A stretch of DNA of 37,569 bases. Source: a virus. The notes under the pieces are model-generated. The model saw nothing but the letters and a program-made list of their open reading frames with translations, searched no databases and was not told the DNA's origin. Shown here piece by piece: positions 1,477 through 33,898 of this stretch (position 1 is the first letter of the stretch; the number at the start of each line of letters is the position of its first letter). The position numbers and the translations under genes are program-made. The stretch is taken from positions 1-37,569 of IMG/VR virus record IMGVR_UViG_3300010300_000005. One strand, given 5' to 3'.

Positions 1477-1992
1477 CTATAGATCATCGTCCTGTTCTAA
1501 AGATTGATTAACTGCGGCTGTAATTAACTCAACTGCCTTAGACTTAGTAACTCTTGCCGGAAGTTTTATAGCATTCGCCTTAGCGATCTTCTTCAATTGG
1601 ACTAATGAGGTCTTTTTGTCATGGATAAATGCCAAATCGATCTCTTCCGTAAGTTCAGCAGGCTGATCTAAATCTTCTGTCTCACCTAATAGGTGTGCTG
1701 CCAGAGACTTAGCAGTCCAATCACTTTTTGTCGGAACAGCAACATCACGTAAGATCGCAAGAGACATCATACCTTGAATATCTAACATCCCTCCTTTAAT
1801 CTTCTCCTTATCGTCATCCGACAATCCACCTTGAGCAGGATTATCAGGACTTACTCCGATGTTAGCAGCAGTCTGCTCTATCATCACTCGTTCTTTAATC
1901 TTCTGCTCAACTGTCTTTCTTGGCGTACTGGGTAATGTCGTTTTACCCATAAATTTACTGAAAGAACCATCCTCATTCAAAACTCTCTTCAT
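1477..1992 (-). CDS. Acidic protein with a SAP/HeH-like C-terminal motif, upstream of terL
   Basis: 171 aa, with a strong ribosome site (AGGAG, 8-nt spacing). It occupies the position where terS usually lies, but the sequence does not look like a terS; the better terS candidate is at 3949-4521. Residues around 130-162 (LVQLKKIAKANAIKLPARV, then TKSKAVELI) resemble the short helix-extended-loop-helix of SAP/HeH or Rho-N type nucleic-acid-binding motifs. This is inferred from pattern only. The C-terminus is acidic and ends in DDDL, a weaker form of the tail shared by the replication proteins. Expression is probably from the TATAAT elements at 2073-2087. It could be a packaging accessory factor, but the function is unknown. 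Confidence 0.8.
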   Translation of the reverse strand: MKRVLNEDGSFSKFMGKTTLPSTPRKTVEQKIKERVMIEQTAANIGVSPDNPAQGGLSDDDKEKIKGGMLDIQGMMSLAILRDVAVPTKSDWTAKSLAAHLLGETEDLDQPAELTEEIDLAFIHDKKTSLVQLKKIAKANAIKLPARVTKSKAVELITAAVNQSLEQDDDL

Positions 1993-2072
1993 TTTTAGGT
2001 CTCCTATGACTATATCCTTATTAAAATAATAACATACTACATATTTCTAAACTATATCAAATGCTGCATAGC

Positions 2073-2087
2073 ATTATACCTATTATA
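2073..2087 (-). promoter_or_regulatory. Candidate tandem leftward -10 elements
   Basis: The minus strand reads TATAAT at 2087-2082 and again at 2078-2073, nine bases apart, about 80-95 bases upstream of the 171-aa gene start. No matching -35 or TGn extension is present, so this is a modest host sigma70-type candidate. Confidence 0.35.
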
Positions 2088-2244
2088 GGGTTGGCAGAAT
2101 ATTTACCTAACATACTGTCAGCTTAGGGGGAAATTTGGGCTAAACAATTATTATTGGGGTTGATTGCAAAAAATAATTTCTTGTTGTGGTCGGAACGCCT
2201 CCCCACCTCCACCTCCTTTTTGGGGGTACCCACCCCTTGACCTT

Positions 2245-2567
2245 TATACAATTGTCCACCTTACCTCATTTTTTCACCTACCCAAATGTACAGGGGCGGT
2301 CAATTATACATTTGGGTAATATTTCGCGTTCACTCGGGCAGCACTGGCAAGGTGGACAATTGGGAGTGTGGACAAATGTACAGACTAATTGGACTGGACA
2401 ATTGTACAGACATTATGTCCCTAAAATAATGTACATCTTATAAAGTGTGGACAAATGTACAGACTCCAAGCCTCTCTAAAAATCTTAACCAGTCTTAAAG
2501 TATGGACAATTGTCCAGTCTAACTATGAATTTTTTACTCTCAAGCTGGAAGTATGGACAATTGTACA
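2245..2567. repeat. Cluster of seven 14-bp near-palindromic sites
   Basis: Seven 14-mers of the form TRKACAAWTGTMCA lie at 2245-2258, 2353-2366 (degenerate right half), 2369-2382, 2395-2408, 2448-2461, 2503-2516 and 2554-2567. The copy at 2503 (TGGACAATTGTCCA) is a perfect palindrome. Several copies share flanks beyond the palindrome (GT or GTG before, GACT after), giving them a common orientation. Successive spacings are 16, 26, 53, 55 and 51 bp, so many are near multiples of 26. Identical sites recur at 4976, 5541 and 5567. They could be operators for a dimeric HTH protein or initiator-binding iterons. Confidence 0.9.
2279..2318. repeat. Perfect 12-bp inverted repeat within the site cluster
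   Basis: TACCCAAATGTA at 2279-2290 is answered by TACATTTGGGTA at 2307-2318, with a 16-base loop. Each arm contains half of the 14-bp site family (AAATGTA), so it may be a paired half-site rather than an RNA hairpin. No T-run follows on either strand, so it is not a terminator. Confidence 0.7.
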
Positions 2568-2640
2568 GACTTCCCTTGACTCTATTTCATAGTTAGTGAT
2601 ATCACTTTTATCAATATTATCGACCAACAAAAGGAAAAAC

Positions 2641-2742
2641 ATGAAAAACATCAAAGAAACGACATTAAACCTTTACACTATTATTATTGTGCAAGCATCA
2701 ATCTTTTATACTGCCTTTACTGTTATTGAGGCATCATTATAA
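2641..2742 (+). CDS. Tiny hydrophobic peptide, possible single-span membrane protein
   Basis: 33 aa. ATG at 2641 is preceded by AAGGAA at 5-6 nt spacing. Residues 9-30 (LNLYTIIIVQASIFYTAFTV) form one hydrophobic stretch suited to a membrane span, with a charged N-terminus. It is the first gene rightward of the repeat cluster and 29 bases before the clamp-like gene, so it is probably the leader gene of that transcript. Function unknown. The good ribosome site is the main evidence for translation. Confidence 0.5.
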   Translation: MKNIKETTLNLYTIIIVQASIFYTAFTVIEASL

Positions 2743-2771
2743 TAACTAGTTAAACAATAGGAGACCAAAAC

Positions 2772-3377
2772 ATGAGAAGAAGTACAGCAGAACAACTAAT
2801 CAATTTATTTAATGTGGCGAGCAAAGACGAGACTCGACTCCACTTAACAGGTATTTATTTGGAGCCTATCGACGATGATACAGTGCGAGCTACGGCAACT
2901 AATGGGATAGCCTTATCGACCATCGTCATCCACGACGACATGGTGCCATGGAGAGCGGTTAATCCATTTATCTTAGCCCCTGAAGCGAAGAAGATGCTAC
3001 AAGCATGGGTTAAAGACATGAAGGCATTGAAGCGAGAAATCAGTGACGGAACTAAACTTTCATCTGGCAATGATGCAGTAAATTTTGTGTTATGTGCCAG
3101 TACTGGCGTGAAATATAAGCTACCAATACTTTACAGGGACTACGTGAAGTATTCAGCTATTTTGCCGAGTAACCAAGAGACGACTCACACTAAGGAGCTA
3201 TCGTTTAACGTGGATGAGCTGATAAACCTATGTAAATCCCTCGGTAAGCGCAAGATTAATCAAGTCACGCTCCAGTATGAATCCAGTATGAAGCCTATAA
3301 TTGTTAAACCAATTGGCACCAAGAACGTATTCACAGAACAAGTAGATACAATGCTTCTAATGCCGGTACAGGTATGA
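2772..3377 (+). CDS. Small sliding-clamp (beta-clamp)-like protein
   Basis: 201 aa with ribosome site AGGAG at 8 nt. Two stretches resemble DNA polymerase III beta-subunit folds. Near residues 22-50, LTGIYLEP then VRATATNGIALS matches the beta pattern GVxLE...LxxxATDGxRLS. The end, VTLQYESSMKPIIVKP to MLLMPVQV, matches the domain-3 ending with kPvvi...viMPmr. At 201 aa it is little over half of a 366-aa bacterial clamp, so it would carry two domains per chain, closer in size to T4 gp45 or PCNA. The likely role is a processivity or tethering ring for the phage polymerase and other factors. It lacks the acidic-LL tail found on its presumed partners. The assignment rests on motif recognition and needs a profile or structure search. 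Confidence 0.62.
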   Translation: MRRSTAEQLINLFNVASKDETRLHLTGIYLEPIDDDTVRATATNGIALSTIVIHDDMVPWRAVNPFILAPEAKKMLQAWVKDMKALKREISDGTKLSSGNDAVNFVLCASTGVKYKLPILYRDYVKYSAILPSNQETTHTKELSFNVDELINLCKSLGKRKINQVTLQYESSMKPIIVKPIGTKNVFTEQVDTMLLMPVQV

Positions 3378-3392
3378 AGGGGACACCAAACA

Positions 3393-3677
3393 ATGGAAAA
3401 ACGTATGAAAAAGCCAATACAAATAAATTTTAATAATTATAAATCGCAGATGACTGAAAAAGACCTAGACGAGATTCACGAGCTGCTAGCTAAAGGTTGC
3501 AGGAAACACAACAGAGATCTTCTTTGGCTAAGGCTAACGACTCAACGCAGCCTAATTCCTGAGTATGGGATTATGAATAGGTTAATTAAAGATACTTACG
3601 GTTGGCACTACTGTGCTGGCCAGTCTTACCCTGATGAAATACGAACGGTTAGGAAAATTATATTGGAGTTACGGTGA
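3393..3677 (+). CDS. Hypothetical protein, 94 aa
   Basis: A basic 94-aa protein starting with ATG at 3393 behind AAGGGG (about 11 nt away); an alternative ATG lies at 3405. I recognise no domain. The middle (CRKHNRDLLWLRLTTQRSLI) is rich in Arg and hydrophobics and could be helical. It lies 15 bases after the clamp-like gene and its last codon overlaps the GTG start of the zinc-ribbon gene, so the three are probably co-transcribed and translationally coupled. Confidence 0.75.
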   Translation: MEKRMKKPIQINFNNYKSQMTEKDLDEIHELLAKGCRKHNRDLLWLRLTTQRSLIPEYGIMNRLIKDTYGWHYCAGQSYPDEIRTVRKIILELR

Positions 3678-3916
3678 ACCCTGCAATTATATGTCCCGAA
3701 TGCAATAATAATGAGCTAGTTTTTAGAGTTGAGTCTGTCAACAGTTACTGCATTTATATTCCGAATTCTCAAGACAAAACTCCGGAAGTTGCCCATAGAG
3801 CGTATGACATACAAGAAACTGAAAACAGTTGGGTGTGTTGTGACTACTGCGGAGCTACCAGTGAGGATAGCCCGGATTTTTCTGAAGAGGTCTATAAGAT
3901 ATGGATGTCATTATGA
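3674..3916 (+). CDS. Small zinc-ribbon-like protein (two CxxC pairs)
   Basis: 80 aa from GTG at 3674, overlapping the preceding stop (GGTGA), with GGAG 7 nt upstream. Residues 7-10 are CPEC and about residues 56-59 are CDYC, preceded by another Cys pair (WVCCDYC). This spacing fits a four-cysteine zinc ribbon similar to the small phage Lar/restriction-alleviation class (CPxCG...WVxCxxC). By resemblance it may counter restriction or bind nucleic acid; I cannot choose. Last gene of the rightward mini-operon, converging on terS with only 32 bases between. Confidence 0.7.
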   Translation: MNPAIICPECNNNELVFRVESVNSYCIYIPNSQDKTPEVAHRAYDIQETENSWVCCDYCGATSEDSPDFSEEVYKIWMSL

Positions 3917-3948
3917 ACCACCTAGGCTATTGCGTACACCAATTAGAC

Positions 3949-4521
3949 CTATAGCAAATCATCCTCATTAGGTTCAATCTCTTTATAATCCGCCTCAATG
4001 GTTTTAATATCTGTTAACTGTTGAGGCGGATCTTTTTTTGCCGGAATACCAGTATCAATCATATAGACAGTACCTTGATGCGTGTGGACTTCTTCCCTCT
4101 TGTCTTTGAAGTCTTCTGGAGCGGCATTTTTAGCATAGAATATAGCCGCCGCTGCATTCCCTTTAGCCTTGCCAGTACCTAAATCAGTTAACATCTCTTC
4201 AATCTTCCCTAACCTTCCCTCAAATGCTATCTTCTTAGCCTCTGCCCATTCAGCATGGGTCTTCTCCCACTTATGCATTGCACTGGGATTAACGCCTAAT
4301 TTAAAAGCTAAACTCTTATATGACTTCCCTTCGACACACATATGCTGAAACATAACCTTTATAAACTTACTATCATATTTCAGACCGGAGTCGCCCTTGT
4401 TATGACCGCCTCTCATTACATAATCGTATAAATCATCAATCCTCTCCTTATTTTCAATCTCTTCTTTCTCCTCTTCACTCAATTCTTTATAGGTTAATCC
4501 CTTCTTTTTAACTAAGCTCAT
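3949..4521 (-). CDS. terS: Probable terminase small subunit TerS
   Basis: 190 aa, DNA recognition for packaging. A helix-turn-helix lies near residues 62-85 (GKSYKSLAFKLGVNPSAMHK, then WEKTHAEW). A downstream segment, GNAAAAIFYAKNAAPEDFKD then K, follows the terS pattern 'GNa.a.iF.lKnraPeeWrdK'. The C-terminal tail is acidic and ends in EDDLL. It overlaps the HNH gene by 4 bases (ATGA-type junction), and the HNH stop region supplies its ribosome site (GGAGGTGAT). It is unusually far from terL: about 2 kb of oppositely oriented genes and the repeat cluster lie between. terS-HNH pairing itself is common in phages. Confidence 0.75.
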   Translation of the reverse strand: MSLVKKKGLTYKELSEEEKEEIENKERIDDLYDYVMRGGHNKGDSGLKYDSKFIKVMFQHMCVEGKSYKSLAFKLGVNPSAMHKWEKTHAEWAEAKKIAFEGRLGKIEEMLTDLGTGKAKGNAAAAIFYAKNAAPEDFKDKREEVHTHQGTVYMIDTGIPAKKDPPQQLTDIKTIEADYKEIEPNEDDLL

Positions 4522-4946
4522 AGTAAATCACCTCCAGACTCATAGTATTTTACTACACTTTCACGATGTTTGTGAGTATCCTTATTATAATCAGCAGTCT
4601 TTTTGCTATGGCACCTCTCGCACAATCTTTGCAGATTTTCGACATCACAAAACAATCTCTTAAACCAGATATCCAGATTCTCAATAGAACAATCCCCATA
4701 TCTAGTATGACTCTTAGGCCCTACCACAACAAAGCTGCCAACCTCTTCGATATGATCGACCTCAATCTCATGTGGCAAGAACCAACCACCGCAACCATTA
4801 CATTGATAATGGTACACTTCCCTCTTGTGGTTAGGATGTCTCATTTTTTTGCCATGTTTAGCACCTTTTATCAGTAAATCTCTATGAATCTGACTGGCAA
4901 TCTCTCTAATTTTATTTTTAATTCTTTGTATCTGCTTCCTGTTCAT
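4518..4946 (-). CDS. HNH homing-type endonuclease
   Basis: 142 aa from ATG at 4946 (GGAAAATATTGC upstream). A TTG 36 bases further up would add 12 residues but has no ribosome site. The HNH core is clear: a CNGCGG zinc knuckle, EVDHIEEVGS with the catalytic DH, IENLDIWFKRLF, the helix ENLQRLCERCHSKKT with the second CxxC pair and the final H. HNH proteins beside terS often support terminase or cos cleavage, or act as mobile nucleases; this one shares an operon with terS. The C-terminus is GGDLL, but that stretch also encodes the terS ribosome site, so its likeness to the other DLL tails is partly forced. Confidence 0.85.
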   Translation of the reverse strand: MNRKQIQRIKNKIREIASQIHRDLLIKGAKHGKKMRHPNHKREVYHYQCNGCGGWFLPHEIEVDHIEEVGSFVVVGPKSHTRYGDCSIENLDIWFKRLFCDVENLQRLCERCHSKKTADYNKDTHKHRESVVKYYESGGDLL

Positions 4947-4975
4947 GCAATATTTTCCTTTCAATCCCTCAATAC

Positions 4976-4989
4976 TGTACAATTGTATA
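4976..4989. promoter_or_regulatory. Single copy of the 14-bp near-palindromic site between divergent genes
   Basis: TGTACAATTGTATA, one mismatch from a perfect palindrome and a member of the same family as the 2245-2567 and 5541-5580 sites. It sits 30 bases upstream of the leftward HNH-terS start and 77 bases upstream of the rightward HTH gene, overlapping possible leftward -10 sequences (TATACA). The position suits an operator for the neighbouring HTH protein. Confidence 0.6.
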
Positions 4990-5066
4990 GATAAATGATA
5001 CTACTAGATTGACCAAAACACAAAACAAGGAAACCTTTTGGGGTTTCAAGATAGGAGTAACACGCC

Positions 5067-5297
5067 ATGACATTATTTGAGTACCTATCAGTCTTCAATA
5101 TTCCTAAGAGAGAATTTGCCGAGCGCATTGGAGTATCTGAGAGCGGATTGTATAAGATTATCAACGGCACAAGAGAGCCTAAGCTACTGACTGCTATTAA
5201 GATTTATAAGCTAACTAGTGGATATGTGGACTATTCTGACCTACTGGTAGACCCATCTGAGGCAGATATAGACATATCAGACAGTGATATGTTATAA
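5067..5297 (+). CDS. Cro/CI-like helix-turn-helix regulator
   Basis: 76 aa with an HTH at residues about 14-38: KREFAERIGVSESGLYKIIN then GTREPKL. This is the classic Cro/CI XRE pattern (FAxxxGVSxSxLYKIxNGxREP). Ribosome site AGGAG (5053-5057), 9 nt upstream. After the HTH there is only a short C-terminal region that turns acidic and ends in DSDML, matching the family tail. It probably binds a palindromic operator as a dimer; the 14-bp sites at 4976 and 5541/5567 flank the gene. Because no integrase is present it is more likely an early-to-late switch or autoregulator than a lysogeny repressor. That role is inference. Confidence 0.78.
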   Translation: MTLFEYLSVFNIPKREFAERIGVSESGLYKIINGTREPKLLTAIKIYKLTSGYVDYSDLLVDPSEADIDISDSDML

Positions 5298-5452
5298 TGA
5301 TTTTAAGACAGGACGTAAGACCCCTGATTTTTTTGTAAAAAGTTGTGAAAAACAAACAGATGAACTTCACCTTTTTATATTAGTTTAAATAATGTAAAAA
5401 CGAAAAAATGCATTAGTTAAAGTAAATATAAAACACAAAATTTTCAAATCTC

Positions 5453-5470
5453 AAAAAAAAAAAAAAAAAA
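5453..5470 (+). repeat. A18 homopolymer tract
   Basis: Eighteen consecutive A residues followed by TTTT. It could bend or melt DNA at the putative origin. Tract length may be miscounted by the assembler. Confidence 0.85.
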
Positions 5471-5536
5471 TTTTCCTAGGCGAATGATTTCAGTATTTAT
5501 AAATTATAAATTATGGGATTTTTGCGCCCTTTTTAA

Positions 5537-5584
5537 AGTCTGTACATTTGTCCACACTTTTTAGTCTGTACATTTGTCCACACT
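5537..5584. repeat. Two tandem copies of the 14-bp site, inverse orientation
   Basis: TGTACATTTGTCCA occurs at 5541-5554 and 5567-5580, each inside the same 22-base context (AGTC before, CACT after), 26 bp apart. These are the reverse complement of the copies at 2369 and 2448, so the two clusters face each other across a 3-kb segment. Confidence 0.92.
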
Positions 5585-5626
5585 CCCCGAATGCTTATTT
5601 TCCGCCTAAAATCTGTAGACTCCTAG

Positions 5627-5635
5627 TGTTATAAT
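5627..5635 (+). promoter_or_regulatory. Extended -10 promoter for the replication operon
   Basis: TGTTATAAT is a perfect TGn-TATAAT extended -10, about 92 bases before the SF3 helicase start and about 50 bases after the repeat pair. No good -35 at 17 bp (TAAAAT), as is tolerated for extended -10 promoters. A separate perfect -35 TTGACA lies at 5653-5658 but has only weak -10 partners (TTTTAT at 17 bp). The sites 47-90 bases upstream could allow activation or repression. Confidence 0.55.
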
Positions 5636-5726
5636 ATTTACACTAATCGGATTTGACATCATGTAAATTTTTCTGTTTTATAGTTGAGCGCTATGTAAAA
5701 AAATTTATAAGAGGGAGTGGTTAAAA

Positions 5727-7364
5727 TTGAAACGACAGCTAGAATCACTAATTAATGAAAATTATCAAATTCGCAGAGTACTCTCAAAGAAAATTGAGCT
5801 AATGGATGGAACCTCTATTAATGTGGCCGAAATTGACAGCGCTTTGCATTCACTTTTAATTGAGAAGCTCAAGGGCGAGGATCTTAATCAGTACACCAGA
5901 CTAGACCCAAACAGTAAGAGGACTGAACTGGTTAAGGTGTTTCAGACTATTGCTCATAGGCAAAAGGATGAGAGGGATCAGGAGCGATTAGAATCAGAGT
6001 ATGAGGCGCAAGCTGAGGAGCATGGGATAGACCTCTCAAAGCTTATTGTCTTATGTGATACGTATGATGATAGGGCACTGACATTCTTATATGATGTGGA
6101 AGAGGAGAAGCTCTCGGAGTTTTCATATAAGGCGGTTAAAGAGTTTCTGGTCAATGATAAACTGCTTCATAGCCTGCCACGTCGACCTGTTAAGGTGTTT
6201 TATGATCCCATGAGTACGCCAAATTATTTGTCGACTGAATCGATTGACGGTCAGCAAGTAAGTAAGATAAATATCTATAAAGAGCCTAGTTGGTTGGAGA
6301 CCTGTCTAGAGAAGTTTAATTTTGAATCTCCCTCTTTTTTTATATGGCGTAAGAATATGAAAGAGGTTCAAAGAACGGATCTTCCTCCGCTGGCTAGGCG
6401 CTTTTTTGAACACTTGTTTCCCGACCGACTTTCACGTGAATATGCCTACAGTTTTATTTTTGATGCCCTTACTTCAAGGAATGGGAGTGAGTATATTTTA
6501 GTGCTTTCTGGCCCTACTGGAACTGGTAAGACTATATTCGCCGAGAAACTGATGAAACGGCTAGTAGGAGCTAGTAATTGGGCGGCAGCGTCTAAGAACC
6601 TGTTTAAATCGACTTTTAATGGGGTTCTGGAGAATAAGCGGCTGATACATGTGGATGAAGCGAGGGTGAGTCAGGATACCTACAGCACAGTAAAATTATA
6701 CGCCAATAAGGTGATGAATATTGAGCGCAAGGGGATTGATGCTGAGAACACGACTGAGCTATTCCTGAGCTTTGTCATCACCAATAATGTGGTAGGTCAA
6801 TATTACATACATTATGACGATAGACGAAACTCGGTGCTAGAGATAACCAATAAGAAATTACTGAATGAATGGGATAAGACAGAAGTTGATGAATTTATTA
6901 AGCTTTTAAATGATGAGGACTTTATCTATGAAATAGGAGAGTTCATTCTGACTAGATCATGGCAGAAGGATAAAGAGCGCAGTAAGGACTTCTCAATTGA
7001 ACAGTTTAGAGGGGATAAATTCTATAAATTTGTGCAAAGACACCTTTCAAGCTGGCAAAAGCTGCTACTGAGGTTAGTGATGACTAAAGGACGCAGAGGA
7101 GAGACCGAAATAACACTAGATGAGGTGATACGTAAGATGGAAAATGATGGAAGACGCAAGACTGTACCGCAAGAGGATACAATAATTGAATTTATCAATG
7201 CCTACAGGCACTTAAACCAGTATGGACTTGGGGTAGTTAAGACTAGATATGATGATGAAGATGGACTGGCCGTAAACACGATAGAGATAGATGATTATTT
7301 TATCGTAAATGAAACGAATGAACAGAGCGGATCAGATGATGAGGAAGAAGAGGACATACTGTGA
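5727..7364 (+). CDS. Superfamily 3 replicative helicase / probable initiator
   Basis: 545 aa from TTG at 5727 (GAGGGAG about 9 nt upstream). SF3 motifs: Walker A GPTGTGKT at about 262-269, Walker B RLIHVDEA, and motif C LFLSFVITNNVV ending in the sensor Asn pair. This places it with D5/P4-alpha/NTPase-type phage helicases that unwind the origin and often recognise it. The N-terminal 250 residues are helical and acidic with no primase signature that I can see; no zinc finger is present, so a separate or host primase may be used. The C-terminus is a run of Asp/Glu ending in EEDIL and overlaps the next start (CTGTGA). It heads the rightward replication operon behind the putative origin. Confidence 0.88.
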   Translation: MKRQLESLINENYQIRRVLSKKIELMDGTSINVAEIDSALHSLLIEKLKGEDLNQYTRLDPNSKRTELVKVFQTIAHRQKDERDQERLESEYEAQAEEHGIDLSKLIVLCDTYDDRALTFLYDVEEEKLSEFSYKAVKEFLVNDKLLHSLPRRPVKVFYDPMSTPNYLSTESIDGQQVSKINIYKEPSWLETCLEKFNFESPSFFIWRKNMKEVQRTDLPPLARRFFEHLFPDRLSREYAYSFIFDALTSRNGSEYILVLSGPTGTGKTIFAEKLMKRLVGASNWAAASKNLFKSTFNGVLENKRLIHVDEARVSQDTYSTVKLYANKVMNIERKGIDAENTTELFLSFVITNNVVGQYYIHYDDRRNSVLEITNKKLLNEWDKTEVDEFIKLLNDEDFIYEIGEFILTRSWQKDKERSKDFSIEQFRGDKFYKFVQRHLSSWQKLLLRLVMTKGRRGETEITLDEVIRKMENDGRRKTVPQEDTIIEFINAYRHLNQYGLGVVKTRYDDEDGLAVNTIEIDDYFIVNETNEQSGSDDEEEEDIL

Positions 7365-7669
7365 GGAAGAAAACTGATGAACTACTTAAGGCGCTGGAAT
7401 GGTGTATTGAAAACAGAAGATCTTTTTGTTTACAGCACCAAGCTCGGCACAATTGGTATAACTTTGAATATTATGATGAAACATTGAAAAAAAGCATCAC
7501 TACTGCCGCTGATAATATTGATAATCTAGCGGTTAGGGTTGATTTAATTAAACGAGGGGAAGCGATAAGAAGGGGTGAAGATCCTGATAACAGCGCTTTC
7601 GAGACAAAGGATGAAAGAAATGATGAAAAGAATGATGAGGGGATTGATGGAGATGAGGATTTGTTATAG
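7361..7669 (+). CDS. Hypothetical acidic-tailed protein, 102 aa
   Basis: Starts at GTG 7361 overlapping the SF3 helicase stop, with GAGGAAGAAGAGG upstream, so translation is coupled. The N-terminal half is helical and basic (LLKALEWCIENRRSFCLQH); the last 30 residues are strongly Asp/Glu/Asn-rich and end in DEDLL. No domain recognised. This tail is followed by a stop and not by a coupled start, so it is one of the independent examples of the DLL ending. Coupling to the helicase suggests a replication accessory role. Confidence 0.75.
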   Translation: MRKKTDELLKALEWCIENRRSFCLQHQARHNWYNFEYYDETLKKSITTAADNIDNLAVRVDLIKRGEAIRRGEDPDNSAFETKDERNDEKNDEGIDGDEDLL

Positions 7670-7829
7670 TATTGTAACGTACATTCGCCAAAAGTGGTGG
7701 CGTTTTATCGACCGAATAATAAAATTTTTATATCGAAATGGAGACATGATTTTACTGGCATTTGCCTTAGCGTTTATGCTGGTTTTAAGCCACGTCATAT
7801 ACTTTTTTACAGGCATTTACGCCATTTAG
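7647..7829 (+). CDS. Small single-span membrane protein, 60 aa
   Basis: ATG at 7647 follows GAGGGG with 5-nt spacing inside the end of the preceding gene; an alternative ATG lies at 7653. A basic amphipathic region (YIRQKWWRFIDRIIKFLYR) is followed by one hydrophobic span (MILLAFALAFMLVLSHVIYF). Basic residues before the span predict an N-in topology. Its place in the early replication operon argues against a holin; it might anchor replication proteins to the membrane or modify the host envelope. Function unknown. Confidence 0.6.
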   Translation: MEMRICYSIVTYIRQKWWRFIDRIIKFLYRNGDMILLAFALAFMLVLSHVIYFFTGIYAI

Positions 7830-7842
7830 TGAGGGTTACCAA

Positions 7843-8058
7843 GTGACCAAGACTGAAGAGATTATATTGAAATATTTTAAAACACCTTTCGACCAAGAGG
7901 AAGCAAATGAGATTCTACAAAGTGAAAACGCGATTAAAAGTCACACTGCAATTGCTATTGTTTTTGGCATGCTTGAAGCTGGTAAGCTCTTGGGCAGACA
8001 GGACGAGCTAATTGCAATACTTAATGACAAACCAATAGAAGGGGAAGATCTATTATGA
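7843..8058 (+). CDS. Hypothetical protein, 71 aa
   Basis: GTG start at 7843 with GAGGG 7 nt upstream. Helical, acidic and small, with no known domain seen. It ends in GEDLL, matching the tail shared with replication proteins; here the codons also form a ribosome site (AGGGGAAG) for the 22-aa frame that follows, so the tail is partly explained by coupling. Likely an accessory protein of the replication operon. Confidence 0.65.
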   Translation: MTKTEEIILKYFKTPFDQEEANEILQSENAIKSHTAIAIVFGMLEAGKLLGRQDELIAILNDKPIEGEDLL

Positions 8059-8123
8059 ACTTAGAGACTGATATAAGACACTTACAGGAGAAGGTGAAAT
8101 TTAATGCAAACAACAAAAGTTAA
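8055..8123 (+). CDS. Possible 22-aa coupling peptide
   Basis: ATG at 8055 overlaps the previous stop (TTATGA) behind a good ribosome site, and the 22-codon frame stops at 8121-8123, after the start of the M15 peptidase gene at 8104. It contains the peptidase ribosome site, so it may serve only to couple translation. No sign of a conserved product. Confidence 0.3.
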   Translation: MNLETDIRHLQEKVKFNANNKS

Positions 8124-8493
8124 AAAAGGCGTTGAAATATTGGATTTGCTTAACCTGACAGAAAATATGAAAGAGTTATTGCTAGGTGCATCTTGGTGGT
8201 TCAAAATGCATGAATTTGAATTCGTAATTACGTCAATTAAGTCAGATCGTGAAAATGTTAAATCGGTTTCAAGCACACACGAAGACGGGCGCGCGGTTGA
8301 CATTAGATCGAATCACTTAAATGAAAAGCAGATAAAAAGGTTTATTCAATTTTGCGAGGACAATTATAGTCACATAGGTGCAATTAGTGCAAAAGACAAC
8401 GTGGTTCGCCCATGTGTTTACCATAACAACCATTTTCATTTGCAAGTACGAAGAGAGAAAACCTTAATCGATAAAATGAAGTTTTGGAAATAA
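8104..8493 (+). CDS. M15-type peptidase (peptidoglycan endopeptidase-like)
   Basis: 129 aa. Zinc-ligand motifs of peptidase family M15 are visible: STHEDGRAVDI gives H59 and D66 (SxHxxGxAxD), and HNNHFHLQV gives H110 and H112 (HxH). Such enzymes cut the stem peptide of peptidoglycan, and many phages use them as endolysins or, from early regions, as ejection or cell-wall factors. There is no signal peptide, so export would need a holin or other route. It lies among early small genes, far from the amidase at 14747 and the lysis genes at 16-17 kb. Ribosome site AAGGTG at 8 nt. Confidence 0.75.
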   Translation: MQTTKVKKGVEILDLLNLTENMKELLLGASWWFKMHEFEFVITSIKSDRENVKSVSSTHEDGRAVDIRSNHLNEKQIKRFIQFCEDNYSHIGAISAKDNVVRPCVYHNNHFHLQVRREKTLIDKMKFWK

Positions 8494-8578
8494 ACTAAGA
8501 ATTTTTCATAGTTATTAACTAAATATGCGTGATGTTAACAAAAAATTGTTAGAATCACGATTAGGCAAAGGAGATGGA

Positions 8579-8716
8579 ATGACCGAAGAAAGCATAATTT
8601 TTGCTTGGTATGACATTGAAAACGATGTGATTTTAACAAGCGGTCATTTAGACAGCTTGTTTTACGGTTTATACCGATGCGACTGGGACAGGTTTATTTT
8701 ATTGGGGGAGCTATGA
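8579..8716 (+). CDS. Hypothetical protein, 45 aa
   Basis: ATG at 8579 has an excellent ribosome site (AAGGAG, 6 nt). A longer frame from 8525 lacks one and is not used. Compact sequence with Trp/Asp and no recognised domain. The stop overlaps the next start (CTATGA), and the final GEL codons form that gene's ribosome site. Confidence 0.6.
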   Translation: MTEESIIFAWYDIENDVILTSGHLDSLFYGLYRCDWDRFILLGEL

Positions 8717-8925
8717 AAGATAAACACGCAACACCACCAGTAGTCTTTGTTTTAGAGGAAAAGATTGCCGAGCTAGAAAAGAAACTAGCGGAAGCGGTGA
8801 AACACATAAAGCAACATTGCGGAGATGCCTTAATTTGTCCAGAGTTAACCTGTTATCACTCCATGGACAAGATAAAAAAAACGGAAGAGTTTTTGGAATC
8901 CCTTGAAGAAAAGGAGGGTGAGTAG
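8713..8925 (+). CDS. Small coiled-coil protein with a Cys/His cluster, 70 aa
   Basis: ATG at 8713 follows GGGGGAG closely and overlaps the preceding stop, which is better supported than the ATG 36 bases earlier. Residues 14-33 (FVLEEKIAELEKKLAEAVKH) form a strong heptad coiled coil, followed by H-x3-C...C-x4-C-x-H, which might bind zinc. No family recognised. It ends just before the next ATG, in a tight operon. Confidence 0.6.
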   Translation: MKDKHATPPVVFVLEEKIAELEKKLAEAVKHIKQHCGDALICPELTCYHSMDKIKKTEEFLESLEEKEGE

Positions 8926-9177
8926 ATGAATACATTTTACGTAATTGAAAAAGGAAACTTATATTTAGGAATTAGCTGCGGTCAGTTTAGATATCACAGT
9001 TTAGATGGAGCTATAAAGTTTCACGATGTCGTCAGCGCAAAAGAGGTGAGCAATGTTTTAGGCCAAATGTTTGGAAGCATTTCAGATGAGTTTAGAAACG
9101 TGAAAATTACCGAGCATATAACAGAGTTTGATGACGAATTCCCTGAAGAAAAGGAAGGTGCGGAGTGGATAAAATAG
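8926..9177 (+). CDS. Hypothetical protein, 83 aa
   Basis: ATG at 8926 directly after the previous stop, with AAGGAGGGTG upstream. The N-terminal half looks beta-rich (FYVIEKGNLYLGISCGQFRY) and the tail is acidic. I recognise no family. The end overlaps the GTG start of the following gene, so the block 8579-9443 is translationally coupled. Confidence 0.65.
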   Translation: MNTFYVIEKGNLYLGISCGQFRYHSLDGAIKFHDVVSAKEVSNVLGQMFGSISDEFRNVKITEHITEFDDEFPEEKEGAEWIK

Positions 9178-9443
9178 ACACCAGTCATCAGGCATATCTT
9201 AGAGCATTGGCAGACTTTATACTGTCAATGCCTGAGGTAAAGCATTGTGTAAGAGATATGATTATTAAAGTGTATATGAGAGATATCCAAGAAGGGGGAT
9301 TTGAAATGGTCAACCCTGACCTAGTCCACCTCAGGTTGAAAGAGTTTCCTGATTATAATGAGTGGAAACAAAACCTAATGAACATACACACCTTACAAAA
9401 GGTGGGGAAGATTATCGGCCATGCTGGAATGTTTAAAAATTAA
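9165..9443 (+). CDS. Hypothetical protein, 92 aa
   Basis: GTG start at 9165 with AAGGAAGGTG upstream, overlapping the previous gene by 13 bases and the polymerase gene by 23 bases. Mostly helical, with no catalytic motif seen. Its overlap with the polymerase start indicates coupled expression and a possible polymerase-associated role. Confidence 0.65.
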   Translation: MDKIDTSHQAYLRALADFILSMPEVKHCVRDMIIKVYMRDIQEGGFEMVNPDLVHLRLKEFPDYNEWKQNLMNIHTLQKVGKIIGHAGMFKN

Positions 9444-11517
9444 ACAAGGAAAACTGTTCCTTGACTTTGAGTACAATGGATCAAATGAAAAGAAACTAAA
9501 CCTAGTTTCATGTGTGGTCTATGTGTACGACAAGGATTGGAACTTTGAGGAGTCCGAGCGCTACTGGCTACATGATAATAAGGATGTGCAAAGGGAGCTA
9601 GTAGAGACTCTCTTCCATTACAAAAAACGTAACTATATGTTTATTGCATACAATGTGATCGCTGAAGCACGGTCACTATTGTCCTTAGGTATGAAGGTTA
9701 CGGATATTCACTGGGTAGATCTATGGCTTGAATACCGTAACCTTTTAAACCACAACCATAAGCTTTCATACGGTAAGCAGTTGATTAAAGGTAAGAAGAA
9801 AATAACCAAGCCTAAGGTGAGCTTTTATGACAATGACAGTGAGAACCACGCTAAACCTGAAGATGGGTACGCAGCAGCTTGCTATAAATTATTGGATGAA
9901 GAAGTAGATACAGATCGGAAAGATCGGATTAGGGAGCTGATCATTTCTGGTAATCGAAAGGAAATCGAGCGGCATCGTGATGAGGTACTAGAGTACAACG
10001 AGGATGATGTCGTTCGACTTCCTGATATGCTGAAAAAGATGATGGCACTATATAAGAGGAAGTATAGGACATCAGATCTTAAACAGTTAAAACAATGGAT
10101 GATTAACAGAGGAAACTACTCTGCTAGAACAGCTCTCATGGAGCAGCTAGGTTATCCGGTTAATTACGAGTACATGAGAAATTTCGCCGACAGTGTTGGC
10201 GATATACTAGGAAAGATACAGGGAGAAATTAATGAGCTTAACAGAAAACACGGATGGATACCGGACGCTGACCCCTTTAAATACGATATTAGAAAGGGAA
10301 AATATAGTTGGAACCAAGTTGCCACACGTAGTTGGATTAAATCTATTGAACCGAGTTTGCCACACAATTGGGACAAGACTGACCCCTCTAAGCTACACCC
10401 CAAAGGTCAGTATTCGCTATCGGCTGAAAGTTTCCAGAAGTATTTCCACGACAGGCACTCCTATTCGCAAGAAAGTCTGGGTAGCCAGTTCGTTAGATTC
10501 CTTAAGACAAGACAACACCTTGCTGGATTTTCTAACAGTTCAAGGAGCACAATATGGGATGCGATTGGAAGCGATAAACGAGTCAGGCCGTACTTTAATA
10601 TATACGGAAGCCAGTCAAGCCGATCACAGCCGTCCAGCACTACGTTCCTCTTTTTAAAATCAGCGTGGATGAGATCTCTATGTGAGCCAGCTAAAGGTAT
10701 GGCCATGGGTGGGATCGACTGGAAGTCTCAAGAGGTATTGATTGCAGGACTTGAAGCAGATGATAAAAATTTATTAGAGGCGTATCACTCGGGGGATGTC
10801 TACCTGTGGTTCGCCAAGAAAGTAGGAGCTGTACCAAAAGATGCAACTAAGAAAAGTCACGGAGATATTAGAGACAGGTTTAAGGCTACAGTGCTTGGTA
10901 TCATGTACCTCATGGGAGCTAAGAGCTTGGCTGCAAAGATTACGAATGATACCGGAGTTCCTACTTCAGAAGAGGAAGCACAAGAGCTGATTGATTTATT
11001 CGATGATCTGTTCTACTCCTATGCTGACTTTAAGGATGACTTCTTTCATCACTATAAAAATGTAGGTTATGTCACCTTAAAAGACGGTTGGACTATGTGG
11101 GGTGATAATCCAAATCACCGCTCTGTTAAGAATATGCCGATACAAGGGGCAGGGGCAGATATCATGCGCCGCGCAGTCACTTATGCACAAGACCTCGGGC
11201 TGGCAATACCGTTCACTCTCCATGATGCCCTTTATGCTGAGTTCAATAGCGAAAATCTTGGGGCGATGGACTCTCTTAACTACGCTATGATTGAGTCATT
11301 CCAAGACTACTACCCCAGATATAGTAGGGAAGAGAAAATGGTTGGTACTGACGCTAACATCTGGAGTCCTGACTATCCTGAGGGAAGGGAGTATGTAAAA
11401 ACTCCCAAAGGGTTAGTGGTGAAACGAGAAAGAATATATGTAGATGAACGAGCAGGGGATGAATACAATAAATTCAGTCGCTACTTTCAGCGAGATGAAA
11501 TATTAGACTTACTATAA
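9421..11517 (+). CDS. Family A DNA polymerase with 3'-5' exonuclease domain
   Basis: 698 aa replicative polymerase, similar in size to T7 gp5. Exonuclease: motif I LFLDFEYNG (D15, E17), motif II AYNVIAEARSL (Glu where Asp is usual), motif III YNEDDVV (Y192, D196). Polymerase: motif A GGIDWKSQEVLIAG (D433), motif B RDRFKATVLGIMYLMG, motif C LHDALYA (H601, D602; Ala replaces the usual Glu of HDE). The two catalytic Asp residues are present, so it should be active. The C-terminus ILDLL shares the tail found on other replication proteins and is not followed by a coupled start, so it is not a ribosome-site artefact. Many phage family A enzymes need a processivity partner; the clamp-like protein at 2772 is a candidate. 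Confidence 0.93.
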   Translation: MLECLKIKQGKLFLDFEYNGSNEKKLNLVSCVVYVYDKDWNFEESERYWLHDNKDVQRELVETLFHYKKRNYMFIAYNVIAEARSLLSLGMKVTDIHWVDLWLEYRNLLNHNHKLSYGKQLIKGKKKITKPKVSFYDNDSENHAKPEDGYAAACYKLLDEEVDTDRKDRIRELIISGNRKEIERHRDEVLEYNEDDVVRLPDMLKKMMALYKRKYRTSDLKQLKQWMINRGNYSARTALMEQLGYPVNYEYMRNFADSVGDILGKIQGEINELNRKHGWIPDADPFKYDIRKGKYSWNQVATRSWIKSIEPSLPHNWDKTDPSKLHPKGQYSLSAESFQKYFHDRHSYSQESLGSQFVRFLKTRQHLAGFSNSSRSTIWDAIGSDKRVRPYFNIYGSQSSRSQPSSTTFLFLKSAWMRSLCEPAKGMAMGGIDWKSQEVLIAGLEADDKNLLEAYHSGDVYLWFAKKVGAVPKDATKKSHGDIRDRFKATVLGIMYLMGAKSLAAKITNDTGVPTSEEEAQELIDLFDDLFYSYADFKDDFFHHYKNVGYVTLKDGWTMWGDNPNHRSVKNMPIQGAGADIMRRAVTYAQDLGLAIPFTLHDALYAEFNSENLGAMDSLNYAMIESFQDYYPRYSREEKMVGTDANIWSPDYPEGREYVKTPKGLVVKRERIYVDERAGDEYNKFSRYFQRDEILDLL

Positions 11518-11527
11518 GGAGAAAAGA

Positions 11528-12025
11528 ATGAGTCGAAGAGAACGAACAACAAGAAAGAAAACATCATCTAACAGAAGAGCAGAGAAAAGATCTGAAGGAA
11601 GGAGAAGGAGAAACTATGTCCATCGTAATGCACCAAGATTCCTACACTCATGGGACAAGTGGGACGAAGGTGACTGGGCAGAAGGTATTGTAGTTGGAAG
11701 CGAAAAGGATAAAAGATTTAAGAGAATGAACTACATCATCAAGCTTGAGGACTTCGATTTAGAATGTGAAGACCAGAACGGTAATCCGATTAAGGTTGGG
11801 GATAACCTATTACTGAACGGTTGCGGTTGTTTAGAGCGTAACATGCAGGGAGTTCAGAAGGGTGATGCTGTTAAGGTAGTCTACACTGGTCAAGTTGAAG
11901 TTAGCAGCGGTGACTGGGAAGGCGAGCTATGTCATACCATGGATGTCTATGTAGCAGAAGAAGGTGGCGTACCGGACGAGCTTGATGAACTTGGTGCGGA
12001 AGAGGAAGAAGAGGAAGATCTATGA
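11528..12025 (+). CDS. Probable ssDNA-binding protein (OB-fold-like with acidic tail)
   Basis: 165 aa, ribosome site AAGGAG. Three parts: an Arg/Lys-rich N-terminus (about 1-35), a beta-rich centre (YIIKLEDFDLECED, VGDNLLLNGCG, GDAVKVVYTGQVEV) with the spacing of an OB fold, and a C-terminal run of Glu ending in EEEDL. An acidic tail after an OB fold is the hallmark of phage and bacterial SSBs, which use it to recruit partners. It lies between polymerase and exonuclease, where T7-like phages place gp2.5-type proteins. The tail codons also provide the ribosome site of the next gene (ATGA overlap). No homology search was possible. Confidence 0.65.
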   Translation: MSRRERTTRKKTSSNRRAEKRSEGRRRRNYVHRNAPRFLHSWDKWDEGDWAEGIVVGSEKDKRFKRMNYIIKLEDFDLECEDQNGNPIKVGDNLLLNGCGCLERNMQGVQKGDAVKVVYTGQVEVSSGDWEGELCHTMDVYVAEEGGVPDELDELGAEEEEEEDL

Positions 12026-12891
12026 TAGAGCCTAATGTCTATTGGGACATGCCGGACGATGAATATCATAAGCAATACAGTCGGGAGGAGCATTACTACA
12101 GCTCCTCTCAACTTAAAACTATGTTAGAAGATCCGCATAAATTCCATAGAGAATACATTTTAAATAAACCAGAGCCAACACCTCAAGCTATGCAAGATGC
12201 TTTTGACGTCGGAACTATCTTTCATCTTGCATTACTTGAGCCGGATAAACTGAAGGGTAGCTTTGTAAACTTTAAGGGCGGTCAAAGACGAGGGAAAGTC
12301 TGGGACGATTTTAAGGAGAGGCATAAGGATAAGATTATTCTAACTGAGGGTATGCTTAAGGATGTCAAACAGTTAAGAGCTAACTACGAGGCGAGCGAGC
12401 TATGTAAGTCCTATCTTGAGGGTGGGGAATATGAGGTGTCCTTCTTTATTAAGTTCCATGGGGTTAATGTTAAGGTTAGGACTGACTGCCTTCACACTGA
12501 CTACATCGTCGACCCCAAGAGTACTAAGGGTTATGTTCATCGAGCAGATATGATTAAGCAGAAGATCAAGACACTCAACTATGATCTATCGGCTGCCCTT
12601 TATCTGGATGTGGTTAATGCTTGCATTGATCACTTTGAGTTAGACATTCCCTATAAGGAGAAATTCTATTGGATCTTTGCTTCTAAGGATAAGAAGACAC
12701 CAGCTCAATTGGTGGACGCTGAGAACTACATTGAGATGGGTAGAGCTAAGTACATGAAAGCATTGAACCTCATCAAAAAGTTTGAGCGACAAGACTGGGA
12801 ATTAAAAGAAAGTATTATGGTGCCAAGACCACCTAAGTACGAATTAAACGAATGGGTTAAGCCTAAAGAGGATGACTCAGAATTATTATAA
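12022..12891 (+). CDS. RecE/RecB-type PD-(D/E)XK exonuclease
   Basis: 289 aa. It begins VYWDMPDDEYHKQ...SSSQLKTMLEDPHKF, the usual RecE/YqaJ-like lead-in. Nuclease motifs: GTIFHLALLEP (G64, H68), the acidic residue before SFF (E138), RTDCL (D155), IVDPKST (D164, K166) and the QxxxY-like helix NYDLSAALY (Y187). This is the RecB-family arrangement used for 5'-3' dsDNA resection in phage recombination or host DNA breakdown. No RecT-like annealing protein is recognisable; the SSB candidate or the Lys-rich protein beside it could fill that role. The C-terminus DSELL fits the shared tail and is not part of a ribosome site. Confidence 0.88.
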   Translation: MIEPNVYWDMPDDEYHKQYSREEHYYSSSQLKTMLEDPHKFHREYILNKPEPTPQAMQDAFDVGTIFHLALLEPDKLKGSFVNFKGGQRRGKVWDDFKERHKDKIILTEGMLKDVKQLRANYEASELCKSYLEGGEYEVSFFIKFHGVNVKVRTDCLHTDYIVDPKSTKGYVHRADMIKQKIKTLNYDLSAALYLDVVNACIDHFELDIPYKEKFYWIFASKDKKTPAQLVDAENYIEMGRAKYMKALNLIKKFERQDWELKESIMVPRPPKYELNEWVKPKEDDSELL

Positions 12892-12901
12892 GGAGACTAC
12901 A

Positions 12902-13453
12902 GTGCAAGTTACACAAATTGTTTACACTAAAACAGTACAAGAGAAAGACTACGAACCAGAGATGATGGAAGCGACAGCTAACCTAGAAGAGGGGGAAGAC
13001 TTTGAAGAGGCTGCGAAGGAGTTACGTGCGAAAGTTCGTGGAGTTCTTGGTATTGGAGGATCGACTTCTACTACTAAGAAGAAAACTTCTAAAGCTGAGA
13101 CGGAAGAGCTGCCGGAGTTACCAGAAGAAGTAGAAGAGGAAGCTCCAGCTAAGAAGACCACCAAGAAAACTACTAAGAAGACCACCAAGAAAACTACGAA
13201 GAAAGCCGCATCCCGTAAGAAGCCAGTAGCTTATGATCGAGAGGTTAAAGATCATAAGACTAAACTTGGTGAGATCTTAACTGAGAACTTCCCAGACTGG
13301 AAGAAGTCAGACGAGATGAAGCGACTTGCCAAGCAAGCAAGTACAGATTTAGAGGGAGAAGATTTCCTTGACGGCAATACAGGGGAAGTACTTGAGTCCT
13401 TTGTTGAGACTGTCATATCTGCCATGGAAAGCGCAAGCAGTGACGAGCTATAA
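12902..13453 (+). CDS. Lys/Thr-repeat protein, 183 aa
   Basis: GTG at 12902 has AAGGAG at 6 nt; a frame from 12872 overlaps the exonuclease gene and is less likely. The N-terminus is beta-like then acidic (EEGEDFEEAAKELRAKV). The centre has a Pro/Glu hinge and a KKTT repeat (about 24 residues, 13151-13220) encoded by two 24-base units. The C-terminal half (YDREVKDHKTKLGEILTENF) appears folded and helical. The cationic repeat resembles histone H1/AlgP-type nucleic-acid-binding tails. It ends in SSDEL. It overlaps the SNF2 helicase start. Perhaps a DNA-bridging or annealing partner of the exonuclease; function unknown. Confidence 0.75.
   Translation: MQVTQIVYTKTVQEKDYEPEMMEATANLEEGEDFEEAAKELRAKVRGVLGIGGSTSTTKKKTSKAETEELPELPEEVEEEAPAKKTTKKTTKKTTKKTTKKAASRKKPVAYDREVKDHKTKLGEILTENFPDWKKSDEMKRLAKQASTDLEGEDFLDGNTGEVLESFVETVISAMESASSDEL
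13151..13198 (+). repeat. Tandem 24-bp repeat encoding KKTTKKTT
   Basis: Two nearly identical 24-base units (13151-13174, 13175-13198) inside the Lys/Thr-repeat gene, the only difference seen being the last base. They continue as degenerate codons to about 13220. Unit number may vary between relatives. Confidence 0.8.
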
Positions 13454-14750
13454 AGGTCTAGCTGTTACACCATTTGATTACCAAAAGGAGGGGATCGACT
13501 TCGGTCTCCTCCATCATTACCACATTAACGCTGATGAGATGGGCCTTGGCAAAAGCCTCCAGTCCCTTACCATTGCTTTTGATGTCGTAAGTAACGGTGG
13601 CAAGGTGTTAATAATATCTCCAGCTTTCCTCCGGTACAATTGGTTTTGTGAGATCAATAAACTTGAGTCACACCTTAACATGGTTCACGTTATTGAAGGG
13701 AATAAGGAGGCGAAGCTGCCCATTCCTAAAAATGTGGACTTTATTATCATGGGTTATGCCCAGATTGACCATGCCTCTCATGTGTTTGATATGGTTGATA
13801 TGGTGATAATTGATGAAGCGCACTACATAAAGAATATAGATGCTAAAAGGACTGAGAGATTACATGAGTTAATCTATCGGTCAGCGCCGGAAAGACTGGC
13901 ACTTCTTACAGGAACTCCTATGCCTAACGGTACTCCGGTCGAGCTGTACTCTTTGCTAAGGATGTGTGGCTATACTGTACATCCTACTAATGGGGCGAAT
14001 GTTTATAAGGACTACCCTGTGCCGTGGGATTTTTATGAGGATTACTCCATTAAAAAGGAGCGCACTATCTATGTTAAAGGTAGGCGTAGGCTCATAACAA
14101 AGTACGAGGGAGTTAGAAAGGATACAGTTAAAAGACTCAAGTATTACCTTAAGGATAAGATGATTAGAAGGAGAGCTGATAAGGTATTAAAGCTACCTCC
14201 TCTTATGGAGAAGAATGTAGTTGTGGACTACAGAAATATCCCACAGCTAATGGAAATGTTTAATGAGTTTAATGGCAATGAGAAATACTCTCCAGAGCTG
14301 AAGGCGAAGTCTGCTATGCTAAAGGTGAAATACACTTTAGACTACGTGAAGATGCTGGACGAGAGAAAGCTAGGGCCATTCCTAATTTACTCAGATCACA
14401 AGAAACCAGTAGAATGGCTTGCTGAGAAGTTAGGATGTCCCTACATTCATGGCGATATCCCCGTTAGAAAGAGGGATAAGTATGTCAGTGAGTTTCAAAG
14501 AAGCCAGCATAACTTTCTATGTATTACCATAGGCTCAGGGGCAGAGGGTATGAACCTCACCAATGCGAGACATCTAATAGTCAATGACCCCAATTGGACT
14601 CCAGCTAAGAATGATCAGATGAGGAAGAGATTCCATAGGATAGGGCAGGAAGATCCCTGTACTGTCCACAATATAATTGGAAGCGTACAGGACAAGAGAA
14701 TAATTGAGAGCCTTCGCAAGAAGATGAAGGTAATAGGAGCAGTATTATGA
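13440..14750 (+). CDS. SNF2-type SF2 helicase/translocase
   Basis: 436 aa from GTG at 13440, overlapping the upstream gene; an ATG at 13368 would lie deep inside that gene. Motifs in order: Q-like FDYQKEGIDF, I DEMGLGKS, Ia ISPAFL, II IIDEAHYIKN, III LTGTPMPN, IV LIYSDH, V GAEGMNLTNARHLI, VI QMRKRFHRIGQ. This set is diagnostic of SNF2/RAD54-like ATPases; phages carry short forms beside recombination genes. It probably remodels DNA-protein complexes or migrates branches with the neighbouring exonuclease. It ends AVL and overlaps the amidase start (TTATGA). Confidence 0.92.
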   Translation: MTSYKGLAVTPFDYQKEGIDFGLLHHYHINADEMGLGKSLQSLTIAFDVVSNGGKVLIISPAFLRYNWFCEINKLESHLNMVHVIEGNKEAKLPIPKNVDFIIMGYAQIDHASHVFDMVDMVIIDEAHYIKNIDAKRTERLHELIYRSAPERLALLTGTPMPNGTPVELYSLLRMCGYTVHPTNGANVYKDYPVPWDFYEDYSIKKERTIYVKGRRRLITKYEGVRKDTVKRLKYYLKDKMIRRRADKVLKLPPLMEKNVVVDYRNIPQLMEMFNEFNGNEKYSPELKAKSAMLKVKYTLDYVKMLDERKLGPFLIYSDHKKPVEWLAEKLGCPYIHGDIPVRKRDKYVSEFQRSQHNFLCITIGSGAEGMNLTNARHLIVNDPNWTPAKNDQMRKRFHRIGQEDPCTVHNIIGSVQDKRIIESLRKKMKVIGAVL

Positions 14751-21948: not shown

Positions 21949-21949
21949 A

Positions 21950-30412: not shown

Positions 30413-30450
30413 GTTTTATTTTTAAATTTGCTTTGGATTCTTGGATTCTT

Positions 30451-31050
30451 TTATATGCCGTCTTCATAGCCATAGTCTCCCGTTGGATCGCCCCATCGGG
30501 ATTCTAGCCATGTATCTGACATTAGCTGATCGTTCGTACCTTCTTGACCGTCTGCGGAACGAACATCCCGTAAAAACTCTTTTCTCTCAGCGATTAAATC
30601 TTGCTTGAGTGTCCGTTTCTGGGTCAAGGCCGTACATAAATCAATAGCGATATCGTATGCTAGTAACTCCCTAAACATGGGCGAATATTTACTTTCGTCT
30701 GTTATTTTCTTCACATATAGCAATTCAGCTTCTACTAGATTCGTATGGACATAAGCATTTTCTTCCACTTTAAATCTTGCTGTCTTGTCATTTAAGTGTA
30801 CTGCTTTGAGGCAGTCAGTAGGGAGTTGATATCGGTAATCGAACCCGAACTCGGGAGAGCCGGATACTAAGCTTAACTGTGCCCTTGCCATAGCAAAATT
30901 CCAGTAATGACTTTGTAATCGACTATCTCTAAGTTTAGAGTATTGTTCGTTACAAAGTCTAGCTCTTTTGTTGGATTCAGAAAGGGAGGAAATCCGCTCT
31001 TGTCCTAATTTAATCAACGCTGAGTTGCAAATTTCCGTACTAGAAGACAA
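30451..31050 (-). CDS. Head-tail adaptor / tail tubular protein A-like
   Basis: 199 aa, as in T7 gp11. N-terminal pattern STEICNSALIKLGQERISSL, with the cluster 'AR.CNEQY...RD..L..HYWNFA.AR..L' (SKLRDSRLQSHYWNFAMARA), and the YRYQLPTDCLKAV strand typical of this family. It binds below the portal and joins it to the nozzle. Ribosome site GGGAGG upstream. Order and motif agree. Confidence 0.88.
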   Translation of the reverse strand: MSSSTEICNSALIKLGQERISSLSESNKRARLCNEQYSKLRDSRLQSHYWNFAMARAQLSLVSGSPEFGFDYRYQLPTDCLKAVHLNDKTARFKVEENAYVHTNLVEAELLYVKKITDESKYSPMFRELLAYDIAIDLCTALTQKRTLKQDLIAERKEFLRDVRSADGQEGTNDQLMSDTWLESRWGDPTGDYGYEDGI

Positions 31051-31074
31051 ACTTCCTCCCTATCAATCTAATTT

Positions 31075-31539: not shown

Positions 31540-31549
31540 TTAAGCCTCC

Positions 31550-32494: not shown

Positions 32495-32511
32495 GTTTTC
32501 CTCCGTTAGTG

Positions 32512-32582: not shown

Positions 32583-32634
32583 TAGAGTGTCCCATGAGCA
32601 ATTAAATAAAGTATAAGGAGGTGCGGTATAAAAA

Positions 32635-33658: not shown

Positions 33659-33681
33659 AGCACGTCCTCAGCTATGGGCAA

Positions 33682-33690: not shown

Positions 33691-33691
33691 C

Positions 33692-33727: not shown

Positions 33728-33784
33728 AAATCTTTCTATCGACCAAAACAAAAAGATAGGCTGTCCCAAGGAAAGGACTCAGGC

Positions 33785-33885: not shown

Positions 33886-33898
33886 AATGGATAAACTT

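Follow-up and report, generated by a model that had tools for sequence, protein, structure and literature searches.

The window analysed here is the whole stretch of 37,569 nucleotides of IMG/VR virus record IMGVR_UViG_3300010300_000005, a podovirus-like phage genome of about 37.5 kb with an HTVC010P-type capsid. The genome looks complete and is probably circular, since the TerL gene crosses the ends of the window (1453 to 1 and 37569 to 37235) and the contig carries a direct terminal repeat. This text concerns a short acidic-hydrophobic peptide, here called a tail, at the C-terminus of many of its DNA-metabolism proteins, and a Lys/Thr-rich protein, KT193, which is the best candidate for the hub that would read these tails from its clients. 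The proteins concerned are listed below by position.

1477..1992, minus strand: 171-aa protein upstream of TerL, end EQDDDL
3949..4521, minus strand: terminase small subunit (terS), 190 aa, putative client tail NEDDLL (phrog_309, 3.5e-11)
4518..4982, minus strand: HNH endonuclease, 154 aa, tail SGGDLL, coincident with the terS ribosome site (phrog_1985, 1.5e-10)
5067..5297, plus strand: HTH protein, 76 aa, tail SDSDML (family of 5 phages in clustering)
5727..7364, plus strand: SF3-type helicase/primase-like protein, 545 aa, putative client tail EEEDIL, overlapping the next gene's ribosome site (phrog_1156, 5e-17)
7361..7669, plus strand: 102-aa orphan, tail GDEDLL
7843..8058, plus strand: 71-aa orphan, tail EGEDLL
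At 8525: open reading frame of 63 aa, end LLGEL
9421..11517, plus strand: family A DNA polymerase (Pol), 698 aa, putative client tail EILDLL after the conserved ..FSRYF end (PF00476, 1.8e-16; C-terminus alignment)
11528..12025, plus strand: SSB candidate, 165 aa, putative client tail EEEEDL (family in all 21 Pol-carrying phages clustered)
12022..12891, plus strand: RecE/exonuclease VIII-like nuclease, 289 aa, putative client tail DDSELL (phrog_412, 2e-41)
12872..13453, plus strand: KT193, Lys/Thr-rich, 193 aa, best candidate hub/reader, own end ASSDEL

A first-pass annotation of the window had pointed out these C-termini, and all of them are correct as described. Its 45-aa protein does end in GEL, but the size given is probably that of a later start in the 63-aa frame, and the region it named (3949-13453) does hold tails, but the whole set is wider, from 1477 to 13453. 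Of the 42 called proteins, 8 have a strict [DE][LIM]L end, whereas the frequency of such tripeptides inside the proteins predicts 0.09 (P = 6e-14), and no virion protein is among the eight. In related phages such ends were counted as 6/48 (G051), 5/51 (G017), 3/42 (G034), and 3/29 (G030). The same annotation had cautioned that some tail codons double as ribosome sites, and this applies to the window HNH, SF3, and SSB genes, which overlap the next start by 4 nucleotides and have Shine-Dalgarno-like bases within the tail codons. It was also right that the pattern is more than a coupling artefact: the tails of the window terS, HTH, Pol, RecE, KT193, 102-aa, and 171-aa proteins are not ribosome sites of a coupled start, and the terS tail is free of this constraint because the gene downstream is convergent. 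Among the relatives, nearly half of the counted tail ends are not followed by a coupled start; for terS tails this is true of 12 of 14. Gene-start coupling does not explain the tails.

The loci in relatives were found by alignment-guided scans; most of their polymerases are about 35-50% identical to the window Pol, and near-identical copies of the polymerase locus were uninformative. About 35 phages, all uncultivated relatives of the window phage, bear tails on the polymerase, SSB, RecE/exonuclease, SF3 helicase, and small terminase families. In phages that carry a KT193 homologue (KT-positive), a terminal hydrophobic residue with an acid in the last four positions was found on 29/33 Pols, 24/28 SSBs, 24/28 exonucleases, 17/19 SF3 proteins, and 15/15 terS proteins. 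Alignment of the C-termini showed that the tails are appended past the conserved end of the fold and that the linkers before them vary. KT-positive Pols run on for a few residues past the conserved ..YxxFxKYF/M end, and these residues are the tail; nearly all KT-negative Pols stop right at that end. The exonuclease family ExoB is likewise tailed in the KT-positive phages G017, G041, and G051 and untailed in the KT-negative members of the first phage set. HNH proteins carry DYL or DFL tails in G027 and L242, and the positional counterparts of the 171-aa protein in G004, G006, G030, and G034 also end in acidic-L. The virion families of tailed phages are without tails, rare single cases apart.

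Each phage uses a dialect of its own for the tail, and the dialects include DLL, DDL, LDL/WDL, DLF, LLDEV/LLDEI, F[DN]L, and xMxF. The tails in L233 are EDLL on both Pol and RecE, DGLL on SF3, DDLL on terS, and DELL on HTH; those in L250 are LEDL on Pol and terS, LDDL on RecE and HTH, NDDL on SSB, and MEDL on SF3. In G051, Pol ends in VDLL, the exonuclease in GDLL, SF3 in EDFL, SSB in EEIL, terS in SDML, and the protein just before terS in CDIL. The dialect of L230 is TDLF on Pol and RecE and EDDF on SSB, that of G005 is LLDEV on Pol, LLDEI on RecE, and LLDIV on terS, and G004 has LDL or WDL ends on five proteins. When phage labels were shuffled within each protein family, tails of different proteins from the same phage were alike far beyond chance. 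For the last 4 residues, z was about 6 in the initial 13 phages, 8.8 in a hold-out set of 20 that were retrieved once the tail pattern had been defined, and 10.5 overall, with P at the permutation floor. The signal is confined to the last 8 residues, with none at -12 to -8, and the same shuffling gave no dialect effect in virion families. As judged from these comparisons, the drift is concerted, each client's tail changing along with the others. The suggestion that the tail is a phage-specific hub motif is thus strongly supported by conservation, the dialects, and the hold-out set.

KT193 consists of a beta-alpha N-domain (15-59), a disordered Lys/Thr linker (62-109), and a conserved helical C-terminal domain (117-191). 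The C-terminal domain was modelled with a predicted local distance difference test score (pLDDT) of about 95, and the model of the N-domain is poorer (72-79). In the KT family, the N-domain is replaceable, the linker is Lys/Pro-rich and disordered, and the C-terminal domain has near-invariant Y, R, H, W, S, and G residues. The family, first clustered from 28 phage records, was found in each tailed phage for which the contig extends over its locus and was not found in about 25 tailless relatives. Its gene lies between the exonuclease and SNF2 genes or just after SNF2, which in the window is the following frame.

13368-14750: SNF2-type helicase open reading frame

This helicase occurs in nearly all these phages, with or without KT193, and is mostly tailless. 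In the window its gene belongs to the early region, as do those of Pol, the SSB candidate, RecE, KT193, SF3, HNH, and terS.

The cross-table of KT presence and Pol tail reads 29/5/5/25 (Fisher 4e-8; the phages are related to one another), and four of the five KT-positive exceptions still show a short extension with a final L. In the Pol tree the KT state needs at least three changes, so the KT-positive phages are not one clade. G030, which has KT and a Pol tail YLDLL, is the 100/100 sister of G001, which has no KT and a Pol ending in YMEGE; the G030 Pol seems to have acquired an address tail. In L229 (5184-6800), the RecE-type exonuclease and the KT193 homologue are fused in one 538-aa frame, with a tail-like NEEDI left at the junction. 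A second class of KT C-terminal domain (L105, L234, L241, L245, L251) accompanies the tails F[DN]L, DYNI, DEI, and MxF. The phages of this class also have another gene order, in which KT193 is followed by a protein of ~385-405 aa and a mostly tailed one of ~175-210 aa.

The distance between tail dialects was compared with the distance between protein cores by the Mantel test. The KT C-terminal domain follows the dialect (r 0.62, P 5e-4), and the KT N-domain (-0.13), the KT linker (0.09), Pol (0.00), SNF2 (0.06), SSB (0.16), and RecE (0.10) do not. Within the main class of C-terminal domain, the correlation is 0.42 and stable to leaving one out (0.37-0.50). A column-wise search for the pocket in this domain gave only weak leads, with 3 of 71 columns at P<0.01 (window P141 and V181). 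The covariation of the C-terminal domain, the co-occurrence, the second class, and the L229 fusion are the marks expected if this domain reads the tails.

We therefore consider it likely that the tails serve throughout the phage as docking signals for a single partner encoded by the phage itself, most likely KT193 with its C-terminal domain as reader. It also appears probable, if a little less so, that the KT193 family is an undescribed class of hub reading a phage-private C-terminal 'address', and that reader and addresses coevolve as a lock-and-key set in each phage, an insulated code that incoming genes must acquire. In the proposed mechanism, an acidic-hydrophobic peptide, usually with a final L, on Pol, SSB, the recombination exonuclease, SF3, terS, and small, HTH, and HNH proteins would fit a pocket in the conserved C-terminal domain, while the Lys-rich linker would hold DNA and the N-domain would perhaps oligomerise. 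DNA-bound KT193 would then gather replication, recombination, and packaging proteins and regulators, SSB included, through contacts of low affinity that can be exchanged, a mode of action resembling that of E. coli SSB tips or sliding clamps. Since one pocket would serve all clients, it would drift in step with every tail, and a separate dialect would result in each phage. What the sequences show directly is the tails with their statistics, the dialects, and the co-occurrence and covariation with KT193; physical binding we infer only from the last two, and oligomerisation, the contact of the linker with DNA, and the function are inferences as well.

Several observations weigh against KT193 as the reader. 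KT193 is itself tailed in the window and in some relatives (9/33), which would be unexpected of a hub that does not self-associate, and a search with its C-terminal domain matched no fold in the PDB or among viral structures at E<=0.001. The distance between SF3 cores also tracks the dialect (r 0.48; 0.32 in the main class, P 0.06), and that between terS cores does so weakly (0.28). SSB or SF3 in KT-negative phages is often still acidic-hydrophobic at its end. The Mantel test pooled the first set and the hold-out phages, and the covariation is phylogenetically non-independent despite controls; the idea of KT193 as hub came from the first phage set, with the dialects and the KT co-occurrence confirmed on the hold-out.

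Some of these points would suit a reading in which another phage or host protein, such as the SF3 helicase or a host reader of SSB tips, reads the tails and KT193 is merely one partner: SF3 follows the dialect too, KT193 behaves at times as a tail bearer, and SSB-tip-like ends exist without KT. However, SF3 is itself tailed in most KT-positive phages (17/19, as above) and is also present in tailless ones, and in each comparison the KT C-terminal domain of the same phages gives a stronger correlation than SF3 or terS. We regard this alternative as unlikely.

The first-pass annotation had proposed instead that the tails bind a sliding clamp, either a clamp-like protein of the phage or the host DnaN, in the manner of QLxLF-type peptides.

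2772..3377, plus strand: clamp-like protein, 201 aa, corresponding to DnaN domains 2 and 3 without domain 1 (phrog_947, 1e-7; PF02767, 0.001; DnaN in PDB, 0.011)

This protein is a possible two-domain mini-clamp. Its matches to DnaN domains 2 and 3, which together contain the peptide pocket of bacterial clamps, are below curated cut-offs; its end, LLMPVQV, resembles the DnaN C-terminus, and its structure model reached a pLDDT of only 31, with few relatives available. Some tails (ILDLL, DLELF, TDLF) are QLDLF-like, and Pol II and Pol IV carry C-terminal clamp motifs (PMC11139829). Against the phage clamp as the common hub, searches of 42 related phage records with phrog_947 and with the window protein detected the gene in G004 alone, apart from the window, and a joint profile run over the relatives' proteomes returned no further clamp-like genes, while the tails occur in about 35 phages. 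The G004 version of the protein is 299 aa long. The bacterial clamp-binding motif is Qphix[LM][FL] (PMC11139829), and neither it nor its hexapeptide form is found in any of 118 tails (0/118), 11 of which end in a Q-less form. The DDL, LLDEV, and DYNI dialects are ill-suited to the conserved DnaN pocket, and sister phages that share the replication genes but have no KT are tailless. A clamp, of either origin, is thus an improbable reader, marginally more so than another partner. KT193 had been listed in the same annotation as a tail bearer, which it is (SDEL), but it fits the role of hub much better than the clamp proposed there.

That the tails are shared degrons for protease clearance of early proteins is very improbable. 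Their position at the extreme C-terminus and their absence from virion proteins would agree with it, but SSB and the late-acting small terminase are tailed, a host protease signal is not expected to drift with the KT C-terminal domain, and to our knowledge acidic-Leu ends are not of the ssrA/ClpX type. Least credible of all is a by-product of overlapping ribosome sites, gene coupling, or base composition, which would suit the HNH, SF3, and SSB overlaps of the window but is largely refuted by label shuffling, the hold-out, and the coupled-start counts given above, and virion genes are equally tightly packed yet tailless.

A KT193 hub may be compared with known systems. The bacterial SSB tip (DDDIPF) likewise places acidic residues and a terminal hydrophobic residue at the extreme C-terminus after a disordered linker, and the phage SSB is among the tail bearers here. 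The C-terminal domain of Redbeta binds both its exonuclease and the SSB tip (PMC7496540), and the candidate reader KT193 similarly has a small helical domain at its C-terminus, with its gene adjoining that of a RecE-type exonuclease. However, many enzymes of one phage are tipped here, not SSB alone, with a single reader proposed for all, and the C-terminal domain of KT193 does not detectably resemble any solved fold, those of Redbeta and Orf among them. A family search with this domain gave no convincing match, and a test of KT193 for a Redbeta/RecT-type annealase found no Pfam or PHROG annealase match and no PDB fold match, although, with the N-domain modelled at a pLDDT of only 72-79, KT193 may still have an annealase role.

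Sliding clamps, including T4 gp45 with gp43, gp55, and gp33, are alike in that one hub serves many clients through short, often C-terminal peptides; for T4, it has been proposed that replication is tied to late events such as packaging through gp17-gp55-gp45 (PMC9026906). They differ in that their motif is not found in the tails, a clamp was not found in nearly all the tailed phages, and the motif here differs from phage to phage. In T7, the acidic C-terminal tail of gp4 docks on basic patches of the gp5 polymerase (PMC12593628). Acidic C-terminal tails thus couple phage replication proteins there too, but the T7 polymerase is the receptor, whereas in the KT-positive phages compared here the polymerase is tailed, and the exonuclease and small terminase are as well. 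The acidic C-terminal tail of T7 gp2.5 likewise docks on gp5. In none of the SSB-tip, clamp, and T7 systems do enzymes of such a range share one peptide in a phage-private code, and we found no report in the literature of C-terminal tails shared across the replication proteins of one phage.

If the proposal is true, a replication-recombination-packaging machine would be held together by one drifting peptide code and one small reader domain, and the small terminase would be physically linked to the replication machinery. About 30 natural lock-and-key variants would be at hand for studying the coevolution of a linear motif and its reader. The code would account for how a foreign gene comes to be compatible with its new phage, and the shared last four residues could serve as a signature for finding members of the machine among unknown phage proteins.

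A search of 50,697 phage records with two KT members gave no match, and KT193 was not found in any cultivated phage. In a single genome scan for hosts, all matches were metagenome-assembled bins (Flavobacteriaceae, Bacteroidia, Dependentiae). Among named polymerases, the closest is that in CP017838; it is tailless, and no clear KT homologue accompanies it. This Silvanigrella phage record has near-identical duplicated segments and long N runs at 21000-24200 and 30300-36700 and looks partial or misassembled.

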